Source: Tetrahymena thermophila SB210 (lineage: Eukaryota > Ciliophora > Oligohymenophorea > Hymenostomatida > Tetrahymenidae). Taken from it: DNA of 64,000 nucleotides. Positions 41,203-48,147 of this stretch are shown in pieces; position 1 is the stretch's first letter; each line of letters starts with the position of its first letter. The position numbers and the translations under genes were made by a program. The stretch covers positions 558,001 to 622,000 of the forward strand of contig NW_002476454.1 of assembly GCF_000189635.1 (NCBI RefSeq), given 5' to 3'. The notes beneath the pieces are model-generated. The model saw only the letters and a list, made by a program, of their open reading frames with translations, was not told where the DNA came from and made no database searches.

Positions 41203-43649
41203 TCATATTTTCTCAGACTTTTAATCTTTAATAATATCAGTATATTTATCAAGAAATTAAAGAAGCTTTTGAGGTGTGTTGCCTGTTGATTCTTTCATTT
41301 CGTTATGTAATTCTTCATCTACACAAAAAGATTACAATATGCTATCAGAAGAAGAACTGTAAACAGTGACGAATATATTTCCAATTGTAAATGTAATATA
41401 TGTTATTAAAACAGTAGGTAAAACTGGACTATATAGTTCTTTTTTATAAGTCTCGCTATCACTCAAAATAAGATAGCATAAAAAGGTACTTGAGCAACAA
41501 ATAAAGCACTTACCAAGAAGTAGCATCAAAGATCCTAATCCTTGCAAACTCTTAAAATACTTTTCATTTCTTTTCATTAAATAAAAGCTTTCATGACAAG
41601 CCTTTTTAAAATCTCTTCCAGTAAGGGCAGTCTTTTTTGATAAAAATTTTTAAATAATTTGTATATTTGTACAAAAAATAATTTTAAAACCTAAATAATT
41701 CCTTCTTTTTTAACAAACCTAAATCTTCCTTCATACAAATTCGAGCAAGATACACAGCAATTAGAAACCTTATCTATTTAATCTTTAGAATTATTTTCCC
41801 ACTCTGCGTCGTATTAACTCTAAGCTCTTTTTCTTTCTGTTTCTTTACTTTAAATCCCCTTACCGCATCCCTAATTTAAAAAAAAAAAAATTTTAATTTT
41901 GATTTCTTACTAGCCCAAATTTAATAGCTTATTATTTTATTAATAAACCAATTAAATTAGTATTTAAAGTAAAGTTTAATTGTTTACATAAAAAATTTCA
42001 AAAATAAAATTAGCTATTGTATAGAGAGGCAACACCAATGAAGCATATGCCAAAGTTCCTAGATGATAGAATCCAAGCTTCACTGCTTACCTAATTTTTA
42101 CATAAAACACACTTTTTACTATTTTTTAATTCTTAAAATTTGTTTACTTGACTGGTGATTTTAGCAGACTTTAATAAGATCTTTTAAAATACCACTGTTG
42201 AGCAGAAGAAGACACTAAAAAATAGGCATAAATAGATAGAAATTCACTAATCCAAATCAGTCCAAAAATATAAAATAGAATTAAATATCTATTTGAGTTA
42301 TAGATATACTTATTGAAAGGGTTTTGTGGTTAGTCAGATTCTTCACCTATGCCATATGCATAAACTCCTGCTAGTAACAAAAATACGAGGCACAAAACAT
42401 AGATAAACCACATTACAAAAGGAATAAGTTATGAAGTGCAAACATCTGTTGTGTAATCGGAAGAGACATCAACTAAAGCGATTCCCATTCTGATTTGCTT
42501 ACATTTACAGAGAACATATAGTAAACTTACTATTCCAAATATGATACAAAAACTACCAAGGACTTTAATTCCTTCCTTTTAGTTGCTGTCAACTGTACCA
42601 GAGCTTATAATTCTTATTATAATATTATATTTTTAACAAAAATAAATTGAAAAAATAAAATTACCCAATAGTATCGTTTGAAACCATTAAACCTCCTACT
42701 ACAAAAAAGGAAGATATAACAGTAATTATACAGAACCAAGTTAAGCATCCACTGAATTTTTTCATCATGAATAAATAAATATAACTATTTAAAAAAATAA
42801 TTTAAATTAAAATCCTTTTTTTTTAGGATAAAAAAATTTGAATTTTTTACCCTATGGCTAGAGAAATAAAAATTGATCCTAGCATAACAGGCCATGAAGC
42901 TTATAAGTCAGCCATATGTTATTAGAAAGTTTATGAAGGTTAAAGATAGCTTTATGTTTTTGCCTTTAAAGCCTCGTCATCAGGGATACAAGCTGTTACA
43001 TCTATTGAAAATAATTAATTGATTAGAATGTATCGTTGCAACTCAATTTTATAAAAATTTACATTTTGTTGTGTTAAAGAATTTAGCTGACGATAATTTA
43101 CATAATCCATTGTTGCTATCAATTTAGATTTGTGAATTTTATTTGCACTTAAATTCTACTATATCTTATTCCTAAGTCTTGGTAGGGCAAGATGATACAC
43201 ATACGGATTTACTATAATCACCAGACTAAGGATCCAACAGAAAAATATATTTATAATTTTGAAAGCCAGATGATTTTCCGCATACATTACCTATTTTGAG
43301 GTTAATTAAATATTTTTCAAAATAAGAATATGATTTATTTATATTTTTATCTCTTACCATCTGTGTCATAAGGAAGCGCATAGGAAGTAGTTGAACCTTC
43401 AGAGAATGAGTAAATAGAAGAAAAAAATAAGCCAACTAAAAACCCAATAAATAATAATGAACAAATGCAATCTGTTATTCCTCTATTTTTTATAGGGCCA
43501 TGTATTAAATTCCTATCTGTTCCAATTTTGTCACCCATATAATTAGGATCATTTTCTTTGTACTTATAAGTAACTTTAATTGACTCCGTCATAATCTCCT
43601 CAGAAGATTCTTTTTTTTCTATTTTTTCTAGATCTGGTAACTTACTCAT
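41203..43649 (-). CDS. Choline-transporter-like protein (CTL/SLC44 family)
   Basis: The gene runs from ATG 43649 to TGA 41203-41205 with several short introns. The N-terminal cytosolic segment leads into GPIKNRGITDCICSLLFIGF, the first membrane helix. Then come SFSEGSTTSYALPYDTDG and, after a splice, NVCGKSSGFQNYKYIFLLDP and CVSSCPTKT. This Asp-x-x-GN-x-CG plus Cys-rich first loop is typical of SLC44. Many hydrophobic helices follow, and the tail is short and hydrophilic (CVDEELHNEMKESTG). Family members move choline and related substrates across the plasma or organelle membranes. The neighbouring flippase also concerns phospholipids, but co-location in a ciliate is not evidence of joint action. 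Confidence 0.88.
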
Positions 43650-44194
43650 ATTAATTTGTTGATATCTAACCTATTCCTTGCCCTTGCTCACTATTATACA
43701 AAGTATTTAATTAGTAGATCTTTGAATTTGTTATTCTTTATTTAATTTATTAACTTTAAACAAAAATCTCTTATTTTATAATTATTCAAATTTATCAGTT
43801 TACTTTGAAAATTGAGTGAAGAAATTAATACTTTGTTTTATTATTTTTTCACAATCCAAACAAATTGTATTTAATTATTTATTTATGATAAATTATTTAA
43901 TCTCAGCTTAATGTTTTATTATAATTATCACGGTACGTATCTAGTTAAGCGAATTAAATCTTATCAAATTTAATTTAAAAATCTATTATTATCCTTACTT
44001 TTTAATTCGCTTTTGTAAAAAGTAAAAATCATAAAAGTCATTCAAAATATTTCATTTTTTTAAAGATCTTATTTTAATTTGATTAAAATATTACTAAAAT
44101 TTACTCTTTGTAATAGAAAAAAATTATAATTTGAAGGAGGAAAAATATAAAATTTTCTCATTATTTAAGAAATTTTTAATATATTAATATATAT

Positions 44195-44201
44195 AAAAAA
44201 A
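44195..44201 (-). terminator. Pol III T7 terminator of the ncRNA gene
   Basis: On the reverse strand seven T's directly follow the last base-paired stretch (ending ATTGC) of the RNA. A run of four or more T's in the RNA-like strand is the standard Pol III stop. Confidence 0.7.
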
Positions 44202-44497
44202 GCAATGTCTGGCTTTGATAGTAGAACGATTAGTTTGACAGTTAATGAGTATGTTATCCTTCCACCACAACAAGCGGCAAGTTTTCCCTGTTCTGTTGCC
44301 AGCCTGAGGCGTTTCCTTAGCTCTTTAATGCCCTGGTGGAGTCCTATTACTAGGTTACCACCATAGCAACTCATTGTTTGGAGCGGGCACACTCTTAGCA
44401 AACTGTCTCATCAAACTCTCATATCCTATCTATCACAACCTACATTGTTTATGCCACATATAGACACAGGTATTGCTACCCTGGCAATAATACTTAC
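44202..44497 (-). ncRNA. Structured Pol III-type non-coding RNA, about 295 nt, family unassigned
   Basis: A sharply bounded GC-rich block (about 40-45% G+C by eye, against about 20% around it) with no ciliate-code gene. On the reverse strand its 3' end GCCAGACATTGC (213-202 of 44 kb) can pair with 5' segments GCAAT, GTCT and GGC (476-472, 465-462, 455-453). That closes the molecule with two 6-nt bulges. Inside, 44334-44363 forms a two-part hairpin (6 bp and 4 bp, 3x3 internal loop) capped by GUAA, a GNRA tetraloop. GGCAA/TTGCC (276-280 with 296-300) and TATTGC/GCAATA (471-476 with 484-489, competing with the end helix) are further stems. A PSE-like plus TATA promoter lies upstream and T7 directly downstream. 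It is not U1-U6, U3 or telomerase RNA by key motifs. RNase P, RNase MRP, SRP-like and the Tetrahymena heat-induced G8 RNA remain open. Confidence 0.75.
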
Positions 44498-44521
44498 GAG
44501 ATAAAGATATTTAAACTTGAA

Positions 44522-44549
44522 TTTTATAATTAATAATATTTGATGGGTC
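44522..44549 (-). promoter_or_regulatory. PSE-like element and TATA box of the ncRNA gene
   Basis: On the reverse strand GACCCATCAA (44549-44540) is followed 11 bases later by TATAAAA (44528-44522). From memory, Tetrahymena U6 and telomerase RNA genes carry a proximal element with core ACCCAT near -55 and a TATA box near -25 to -30. Those spacings put the start at about 44494-44500, exactly where the GC-rich block begins. Confidence 0.65.
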
Positions 44550-44873
44550 TCCTATGTTAATATAATTTTGAAAAAAAGATATGATTAAATTTCTTAAACT
44601 GAAAATACTTAAATTAATTAAAAAACAATAAATAAATACCAAACTGAATTGTCATACAATATAGATTCTAATTTTAAATAATACCAAGTTATTATTAATA
44701 TAAAAATAATACAAAATTCAAAAAAAAATGTATTATTTTTAATTAAGATAGCATATGTTGAAAAAATTTAAATATTCTAAGGTGAAAAAAAAAATATTTA
44801 TTTTTAGTTTGTCTGTATATTAGCTAAATACAAAATATTGAATATTAATGTTTCTGCAAATAATAAATTTATT

Positions 44874-47800
44874 TCATTTTCTAAGACCAGCTGATTAAAG
44901 TTAATTTTCCATGTAACTAATCACACTAGGATCTCTACACTGTTCTCTAATCATTTCAAGTAAGTCTAAATTTTTTCTTGAATTGATTACATCTTACACG
45001 GCACGCTTTGCCTCATCGATTTTGAGAAGGATAGTAACTCTTTCTTCCATTTTTGGAATATTTAATATCAAACGAACTGCTTAGTCTTTTGCTCCTTCTT
45101 TTATTAGTAAATCGGCAACCAATTCGTAGGGAATAACAACGTTCTTTTTATTAACTTCTTTAACCAAGAAAAATTCAAGCTACTCATAATCCTTCTCTTT
45201 TATTAAATTACGAACTTTTAAAAAATCTGTACGCTTTTAAGAAACATTAAAGTCTTTTATTTTATCTTTGATTGATTTGGCATCACGTGCTAAAGTGTCT
45301 GATAAGCTCTTATTGACTGTCCATTCTAAAATTTCATCTATGAAGTGTTTGTTCAATTCATCTGTAGGACTGCCCAGTATATATTCCAAACTTTAAATTT
45401 CTTTTAATAGTGCTTATCCTAAAAAGTTATCATCTATTTTCTTTTAATTAATTTCTTTTAAAGCTTGTCTTAAATTTTCATGTCTGTTTATCAAATTTTC
45501 TTTTGTAGACTTCTTATAGTTAGTTTAAAAGCTATTCTTGATGAAGTAGCTTACTTTTTCTAAACCTTAATCATTATTACAATAATTTATAAAATTTTTA
45601 TATCTTTCTTGTTTAGACTAAGAAGAACTGTTTTTTAAATAGTTTTTATAATGGTTAGCATAAATTTATTCACTTTTTAACACGTGGAACTTTAAAGTTT
45701 CATTTTTCATGTATGTATCCATTTCTTTTAAGCACATATAAATTAATTCACTATCGCGACTTTAAAGTGCCTATTAGAGCGCATTTTCATAATGACGTGC
45801 TTACCTAGTTTAAACATCTTCTTTCCATTCCTTAGATTTAAGCTTTTCTTCAATTTCATTTCTGTCTAATCCACTTTAAGTTAGGGCATTTGATTCAAAT
45901 TCTAAGCAGTTTTTCCCCATCCAAATCAAAACTGGAACTCTTTTGAATGCAGATGGCTCCTAGTAAAGTAGTTTCATTGCTAAATTTTATCTACACTCTT
46001 TTGTAGCTCTCTTAGCTATATTTACAAATGAAACATTCTTTTCATTTCTAAGCTTGCTTATGATTTTTTCAGCTACTCTGTTATCCTCATTATCGGCATT
46101 ATATTACATAGAATTCCATGAATCTTTATTTCCTCCTATGCCTCCTAAATCATTACTGTTTCTTTGTTCATGCTATCTTGCTGCAGCAGAACTCTTTTCA
46201 ATGACCCTTTCAGCCCAATGCTCAAAAATATAAGTTCTAACTTTTGGCTTAAAATCAAGTTAATTACATACATTAAAGGCTAATTCATGATAATCGTATC
46301 TAAGCATTATATTTATCAATTGTTATTACAAGTCTCCTGAGAGCAGATTATTAACCTTTATGATTTATGATTTATTTATTTTATCATTCAATAAAAATAT
46401 AATGAGAAAGTTATACCTATGCACAAGTTATCATACGTTTGATACTCACTTCTCTAAAATTATAAACAACCCTTAATTTTTGACACAAAAGCCCAAATTC
46501 ATCATGGTTAATCGCATCTGGTCCCAAATAAGTCTTTCCATAAGATGCTGCTTTTAGAAGATCTTTTTATTTCTCTTCATCTGTAATAAATGCAGCTACT
46601 GTCATACAATCTTTTACTGCTTATCTAAGTTAAGCTGGGTTGCTTCTAAGATCTGAGTCATCGAAAGGTTGCTTTGATTTCAAATTCAAATAATTTTGAA
46701 GTAATTTAGCTGCCTAATAATATATTTTTTATTGTGGATATTATGAAATATTTTAAATAGAATATAAGTTACAGGTTTTTATGAATCCCAATTTGATATG
46801 TACTCAGGATATACATTTAAAAAAGCATCTGGTAATGAACGGAGCAATTTATCACCTTTCTTTGTTATGATTCTTATTCCATCTACTTCCTTCGACATGA
46901 TAAAATCTTCATTAATTTAAATGATTTCTGTAACATCTGGCCCTATCATAAGAATAGATTAATCTATTTATAATACACAGCAGTCATCACCACACCACAT
47001 CATCTGCAATTATGATTCCTTGGAAGAAATAGTATTTGGCAATTTAAGTCCTTTTAAGTCAACATCACAAACTGTATATCTCTTAGCTTCGTAATCATTT
47101 GAAAGTACACTAAGCTTAATTTTTCCATTTCCAACTTCCCTATTTTACAATATTTTTTGAAAATTTATTTTAATTGCTGATTCTAAATATTTTTAATTAC
47201 TATAAGTAAGCTATCAAAGAATTGCTAGGTGACAAAGCTATAAATTGTATATTTTTAATAGGAGGAAGACTACTAGAGACTTATTTAGGTTAAGCTGAAG
47301 CTTTATCTGATTGATTTACGTCAGGAATCTGGTAATATAATTTACGATTAGTTTCAGTTAGGCTAATAACACCGCTTTCAGGGTGAGTCATTTATATTTC
47401 TAGTGTTTTTAATTCAGATTAATCCTTTGTCATTATAATCCAATCTCTTGGCATTTCTTTAATTCCAGATTTATAGAAAGCTTTTTCTGGAATAATTTTG
47501 TCTCTTGTTTGCATATGCAAATTATCAACATAAAAGAACCTTACTTCTTCTGGTTAGTTTTAATTGGTTATTTTTGCACAAAATGCAAATCCATTACCGA
47601 AAGCCTTTTTGTTTTAAATAATATAATAATTATAAAAGTAGCCAATATGCAGTAAATTGATAAAAATTTAAAAATTAAACTGATGGTATTATTGAAATAA
47701 AACTTTATGTATTTTATCTACCTTTGCTTGATAGATGTTACTTTGAAACTTTGTATCCAAATTATAGGGTTTAAGATTTTATTCATTCCTGAATGGGTCA

Positions 47801-48147
47801 ACTAAGTAATACACAGGAGGATTGCTAGTAAGAATTAAAAGCAATTCATTTTATAGGAAATCAAAACAAACTACATCTCTACCTTGATAATCAAATTTTA
47901 TATGATTAAAAATAACACCATCGGATGTTAAAAAACATAGTTCATTATTCAAAACAGAAGTTTTTAAGTTAGGAACAATTTTATTTTTATTTCTCATGAG
48001 AGCTATTGGACCACCATACTTAGCTACTGCACTGTGAAAATAACTTAACTTTATATTATCTTCTTATATTTTAGAGTCCATAGTAAAAAAATCTTTATAC
48101 TCATATGGCTTTTCTCCTAAATTGATAATATCTTCGTGAAATATCAT
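44874..48147 (-). CDS. VPS16: Vacuolar sorting protein VPS16 (HOPS/CORVET core)
   Basis: The gene runs from ATG 48147 to TGA 44874-44876 with about four short introns (near 46.4, 46.7, 47.2 and 47.7 kb). The N-terminal half is a beta-propeller: HSAVAKYGGPIALMRNKNKI matches the VPS16 PYGGPIALLR motif, and later VDGIRIITKKGDKLLRSLP matches the propeller exit. The C-terminal half is alpha-solenoid with a helical core (LMLRYDYHELAFNVCNQL, KRVPVLIWMGKNCLEFES). VPS16 with VPS11, VPS18 and VPS33 makes the tethering core at endosomes and vacuoles. In Tetrahymena the CORVET-type subunits also serve phagosomes and mucocysts (general knowledge). The C-terminal region near 45.0 kb is Lys/Glu-rich helix as usual. 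Confidence 0.9.

Follow-up and report, generated by a model that had tools for sequence, protein, structure and literature searches.

A gene for the cytosolic signal recognition particle (7SL) RNA in a 64-kb window of the Tetrahymena thermophila genome

Identity of the locus

The window analysed here, a 64-kb stretch of contig NW_002476454.1 of Tetrahymena thermophila SB210 (positions 558,001 to 622,000), contains a GC-rich block on its minus strand, which we assign with a probability of roughly 0.98 to a gene for the cytosolic signal recognition particle (SRP; 7SL) RNA of Tetrahymena. The SRP is a universal machine that directs newly made proteins to the secretory membrane. The block is read as an SRP RNA gene because it gives a full-length match to an Rfam SRP family above the cut-off of that family. 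This match, to RF00017 (Metazoa_SRP), runs from 44485 to 44197 on the minus strand and takes in all 299 model positions (1-299). Its score is 103.4 bits, where the cut-off is 70, with an E value of 3.3e-25. The whole window was scanned with 4227 Rfam families, and Metazoa_SRP is the sole match listed at cut-off, an overlapping lower-scoring one from the same clan having been left out. With a permissive threshold, applied to the locus only, RF01855 (Plant_SRP) reaches 100.2 bits, under its own cut-off of 105, and the three other matches listed there have E values of 1.2-7.8.

The block had been singled out in an earlier note as a GC-rich island in AT-rich DNA, and the base composition bears this out: GC content is 0.37-0.50 in the five 100-base windows between 44200 and 44499, compared with 0.12-0.14 (44000-44199) and 0.12-0.17 (44500-44849) in the flanking ones. 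The fold of the RNA is 3.5 standard deviations more stable than those of dinucleotide shuffles of its sequence, and none of the 200 shuffles equals it. The same note had listed an SRP-like RNA among its candidates, which was correct, and the covariance-model search that it proposed returns SRP at full length above cut-off and no match to RNase P or RNase MRP. The note also stated that the block holds no gene in the ciliate code. Open frames run mechanically across it, one of them at 43911-44543 on the plus strand (210 codons), but the sequence is accounted for by the RNA gene. The description of the RNA as unassigned, or as a new class, gives way to the Rfam SRP match: the RNA gene is real and complete but belongs to a long-known kind. 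The parts of this gene are collected in Table 1.

Table 1. Positions within the window of the SRP RNA gene, its control elements and its structural parts
Feature	Position	Strand	Basis
Proximal sequence element, core ACCCAT, at -63	44543..44548	minus	position common to 9/10 small-RNA genes
TATAAAA, off register, at -43	44522..44528	minus	offset in 1/9 genes
TATA-like TTTAAA, at -30, 33 bases after ACCCAT start	44510..44515	minus	same offset in 9/9 genes with ACCCAT
SRP (7SL) RNA gene, ~290 nt, 5' end GCCAGG near 44485	44197..44485	minus	Rfam RF00017, full-length
Alu 5' domain	44453..44485	minus	Rfam alignment, consensus fold, pair-change count
Alu helix 2	44485-44483 with 44455-44453	minus	Rfam alignment, consensus fold, pair-change count
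Short helix 3, GCAA loop	44480-44469	minus	U-A/C-G compensatory pair
UGU of Alu domain	44468-44466	minus	Rfam alignment, consensus fold
Weakened helix 4	44464-44456	minus	one of two pairs lost in this copy
Helix 5, 5' strand	44369..44447	minus	four clean two-sided compensatory pairs
Helix 6, GUAA tetraloop at 44350-44347	44329..44368	minus	14/14 pairs unchanged in 3/3 copies
Helix 8 with predicted SRP54-binding internal loop	44278..44319	minus	Rfam consensus alignment, compensatory pair 169-208
Helix 8 loop	CAGG 44306-44303 opposite AACA 44292-44289; apical GCAA 44299-44296	minus	
Helix 5, 3' strand	44203..44275	minus	Rfam alignment, pair-change count
T7 run, Pol III-type terminator	44195..44201	minus	sequence

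Copies in the genome

A covariance-model search of the genome (101.0 Mb, 445 contigs; 26 of 80 candidates scored) found at least three SRP RNA genes, and a search at the DNA level led to the same three (3/3 candidates scored). The two copies outside the window, C78a and C78b, score 103.3 and 103.2 bits and are arranged in tandem on another contig, C78, with starts 710 bases apart. Among prokaryote control genomes, 5 of 14 gave SRP covariance matches, none of them over the cut-off.

The differences between copies are concentrated at the Alu-side ends. The copy in the window departs from C78a and C78b in 25 and 24 of 97 end columns, respectively, and from each of them in 2 of 188 central columns, where the two changes compensate each other. 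The C78 copies differ from one another in 7/97 end columns and in no central column (0/188). The base following UGUG is U in the window copy and A in both C78 copies, and the terminal T run is T5 in the latter, compared with T7.

Promoter and terminator

Judged by its sequence, the SRP RNA gene fits the ciliate type-3 layout for RNA polymerase III (Pol III), with an ACCCAT core, a TTTAAA element and a terminal T7. This arrangement, together with the full-length SRP match and the stable fold, is consistent with the earlier proposal of a stable Pol III-type RNA gene, whose end had rightly been placed at the run of seven T's. The ACCCAT core, also recognised in that proposal as a promoter element, lies within GACCCATCAA (44549-44540, minus strand). 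It starts at -61 to -65 in nine of ten small-RNA genes of this genome, namely three for SRP RNA, four for U6, and those for telomerase RNA and RNase P RNA; for U6 and telomerase RNA the start was that of the model or one known beforehand, and the RNase P 5' end was set 6 bases before the model start, since those bases pair with the 3' end. With 21 occurrences of ACCCAT in 168,006 strand positions, a chance hit in the seven-base slot has a probability of about 0.09% per gene.

All nine genes with ACCCAT also carry a TATA-like element (TTTAAA, TTTATA, CTTATA, TTTAAG or TATAAA) 33 bases further on, at -28 to -32. TTTAAA is preferred as the TATA-like element of the SRP RNA gene because its offset from ACCCAT is common to all nine, compared with one of nine for TATAAAA. 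The latter, which had been taken for the TATA box, is probably not the functional one, and the RNA does not start 25-30 bases after it as had been thought; 36 bases lie between the two. As for internal promoters, no B box was found at two mismatches or fewer, and A-box-like words, all with one mismatch (2, 2 and 3 in the three SRP RNAs), were given no weight.

Among these loci, the RNase P RNA gene (C426:78466-78783) has ACCCAT and TATAAA arranged as in the SRP, U6 and telomerase RNA genes. At least four U6 genes are clustered within about 3 kb (C424:90278-93186), and every one of them has an ACCCAT and a TATA-like element to itself. Hargrove et al. are said to have published the T. thermophila telomerase RNA promoter in 1999. 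The nine ciliate genes with one promoter layout could be used to seek further small-RNA genes.

Fold and compensatory changes

The features expected of an SRP RNA are present, namely helices 2 and 3, the UGU, helix 5, helix 6 with its GUAA loop and the helix 8 loop, with helix 4 being weak. The perfect two-part hairpin closed by GUAA, described before the family was known, is there and corresponds to SRP helix 6. We take this GUAA tetraloop to be the SRP19 site of known SRPs, in which the SRP19-bound tetraloop of helix 6 is a GNAR-type motif. Helix 6 and the internal loop of helix 8 are identical across the three SRP RNAs.

Pair changes were counted in an alignment of the three SRP RNAs (A1), all from one genome, with a structure drawn up manually on the basis of the Rfam alignment and consensus fold. 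Column 19 is part of the UGU, and the invariant pair 6-19 was for this reason removed before the count, which left 92 of 93 pairs. Pairing is found in 98.2% of the 276 cells (92 pairs in three RNAs). Two-sided changes occur in 8 of the 92 pairs, a number that none of 500 shuffles reach, and structures slid by 1-3 columns (six controls) give 0-3 such pairs; of the five measures, that of further pair types (observed value 11) was reached by 146 of the 500 shuffles. Six of the two-sided pairs form in all three RNAs: 9-16 in helix 3, 42-282, 53-270, 59-265 and 63-261 in helix 5, and 169-208 in helix 8, the last being an A-U/G-C compensatory change. Pairs 49-274 and 52-271 are compensated in one row and broken in another. 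Helix 5, which joins the Alu and S domains (columns 40-118 with 212-284), contains four cells that do not pair, in its variable part at columns 49-52.

The free minimum-energy fold pairs helix 8 differently from the SRP model, and the SRP pairing is preferred because columns 169-208 covary and the pair 169-181 of the consensus fold is broken in the window copy. A different fold had also been proposed for the ends of the RNA, with GCAAT, GTCT and GGC pairing with ATTGC, AGAC and GCC. All 12 of these pairs can form in the window copy, but only 9/12 in each paralogue, and forcing them costs 11.3 kcal/mol here, and 30.2 and 31.4 kcal/mol in the paralogues, relative to the free fold. Given the 9/12 pairs in the paralogues and the cost of 11.3 kcal/mol, the working fold probably does not include this end pairing. 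At the base of SRP helix 5, all three RNAs form 6/6 pairs, with one compensatory change.

The sequence data establish the family, the fold, the compensatory changes, a promoter layout common to several genes, the SRP54 genes and a partial SRP19 match; how the gene is transcribed, by which polymerase, and how its RNA assembles and functions are inferred. The ACCCAT element and the TATA-like element 33 bases on would recruit Pol III, which would transcribe about 290 nt and stop at the T run. The RNA would then fold into two domains. The Alu domain, comprising helices 2 to 4 together with the base of helix 5, would be expected to slow translation; the S domain, comprising helices 6 and 8, would be expected to hold SRP19 and SRP54, the latter being the reader of signal peptides. 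In known SRPs, helices 6 and 8 are the binding sites of these two proteins. The signal peptide is recognised at the ribosome by SRP54, and translation is slowed by the Alu domain until docking at the endoplasmic reticulum; part of this account is given in the abstract of PMC8137916.

SRP proteins

Two SRP54 genes with M domains are found in the genome, and SRP54 chains are the best PDB match for both. The RNA-binding stretch of the M domain reads RIVRIARGSG in the C169 paralogue and QLFRISKGSG in the one at C65:210110-210406, compared with RIQRVARGSG in the PDB chain 7nfx_x, and the C65 gene is a second, divergent paralogue. SRP19 is represented by one partial match, which spans only positions 15-51 of 95 and scores 27.6 bits where the cut-off is 25. 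Among the literature matches listed, no title dealt with a second SRP54 in Tetrahymena or with SRP RNA variants.

Weighing the alternatives

Several observations weigh against the assignment to a working SRP RNA gene, or against parts of its support. SRP9 and SRP14 were not found by Pfam models in a search where introns break the frames and where 0/14 control genomes matched either protein. Helix 4 pair 23-31 is absent in the window copy, leaving one pair, compared with two in the C78 paralogues. The predicted SRP54-binding loop has AACA in 3/3 copies, compared with AGCA in both the metazoan and plant Rfam consensus. The covariation comes from three related rows, all six clean changes separating the window copy from the other two, and the structure that was tested derives in part from the same three sequences; the covariation is limited to these paralogues of one genome because S-domain pattern scans for related ciliate sequences, run on viral contigs and on bacterial and archaeal genome contigs, gave no matches. 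The promoter layout, too, has its exception in the RNase MRP gene (C258:102064-102338), which lacks ACCCAT over the 500 bases preceding the model start and has no stretch of four T's within 20 bases beyond the model end; RNase MRP RNA may be made in another way.

Readings of the block as a different RNA have little to recommend them. That it encodes RNase P RNA, RNase MRP RNA, telomerase RNA, a U-type small nuclear RNA or a new class of Pol III RNA would agree with the shared promoter layout and with nothing else, and is hardly credible, given that the listed at-cut-off match in the window is to the SRP family and that genes for RNase P, RNase MRP, telomerase RNA and U6 have each been located elsewhere in the genome. 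The note had already set telomerase RNA and the U-type RNAs aside, correctly as regards telomerase RNA and U6, but had kept RNase P and RNase MRP RNA as candidates; for these two, no match was obtained in the window at cut-off or at the locus up to E 10, and matches over the cut-off lie on C426 and C258. It is also very improbable that the block is the heat-induced G8 RNA, which is of similar size, since SRP RNA suffices as an account. G8 RNA is described in an excerpt of PMC6315972 as expressed exclusively during stress.

Other alternatives accept the family and concern the role of this copy. If the C78 tandem pair supplied the working SRP RNAs, the window copy could be a drifting pseudogene, as the loss of one of the two helix 4 pairs, the U for A after UGUG and the 25 and 24 divergent Alu-side columns might suggest. 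Against this reading are the clean two-sided compensation that helices 3, 5 and 8 show relative to the C78 pair, the promoter, which is in register, the T7 at the end of the gene, and the fact that only two of 188 central columns have changed, in a way that compensates; we consider a pseudogene unlikely. Alternatively, the window copy, with its own promoter, could serve a particular condition or set of clients, possibly together with the divergent SRP54. The copy-specific Alu domain next to a conserved central region, and the QLFRISKGSG of the second SRP54 in place of RIVRIARGSG, are in keeping with this. Nevertheless, nothing ties this RNA to the divergent SRP54, the identity of helix 6 and the helix 8 loop in the three RNAs does not indicate an RNA-specific pairing with SRP54, and divergence on the Alu side, taken by itself, is compatible with drift under a constraint on pairing. 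We regard a specialised second SRP as possible but doubtful. In a fuller version, T. thermophila would have two kinds of SRP, a common one based on the C78 copies and an Alu-variant one based on the window copy, so that the slowing of translation would vary with the condition or the client. The variant would be marked by a promoter sequence of its own and a degenerate helix 4, and might have the divergent SRP54 as its partner. We put this version forward as a speculation with low odds. If it were true, it would represent SRP specialisation within one cytosol, which would be surprising.

The SRP RNA gene is thus, in our assessment, an ordinary one of a kind known in the genus. An RNA gene that looked unassigned is now a standard cellular RNA, and a false lead has been removed.

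Neighbouring genes

Just upstream of the SRP RNA gene, on the same (minus) strand, lie Vps16 exons at 44874-46307 and 47095-48147, which are readable only in the ciliate code, the two frames containing 24 and 18 reassigned codons. Downstream, there is a gene at 42589-43649 (minus strand), of which two frames, 42592-43287 and 43320-43649, gave no Pfam match; by eye, its start resembles a choline-transporter-like protein.

Comparison with known systems

The closest likeness in promoter structure is to the U6, telomerase RNA and RNase P genes of the same genome, which share the positions of ACCCAT and of the TATA-like element and differ in their RNA product. With the eukaryotic SRP RNAs described by RF00017 and RF01855, the Tetrahymena RNA has in common its length, the main helices, the GUAA loop of helix 6, the CAGG in helix 8, the UGU and the T-run end. 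It departs from them in a very short helix 3 with a GCAA loop, in a helix 4 of one or two pairs and in having AACA rather than AGCA.

Among the literature matches listed, no title or abstract dealt with Tetrahymena SRP RNA, apart from a sentence on Tetrahymena rostrata in the excerpt of PMC8137916; PMC8321541, in the part seen, deals with a T. thermophila mitochondrial protein and not with SRP RNA. The excerpt of PMC8137916 also allows a comparison with the Alu RNA of Plasmodium falciparum, another alveolate, whose open form has small apical loops as in Tetrahymena. A loop-loop pseudoknot looks unlikely in the Tetrahymena Alu RNA too, as in P. falciparum, because the loops read GCAA in helix 3 and UUCG, UUAG or UAUAU in helix 4. 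As far as the excerpt goes, the two differ in that helices 3 and 4 are extended in Plasmodium, whereas those of Tetrahymena are minimal. The T. rostrata SRP RNA is mentioned there with a short helix H3, and the short helix 3 found here agrees with that description; an SRP RNA of the genus Tetrahymena is, to that extent, already in print.
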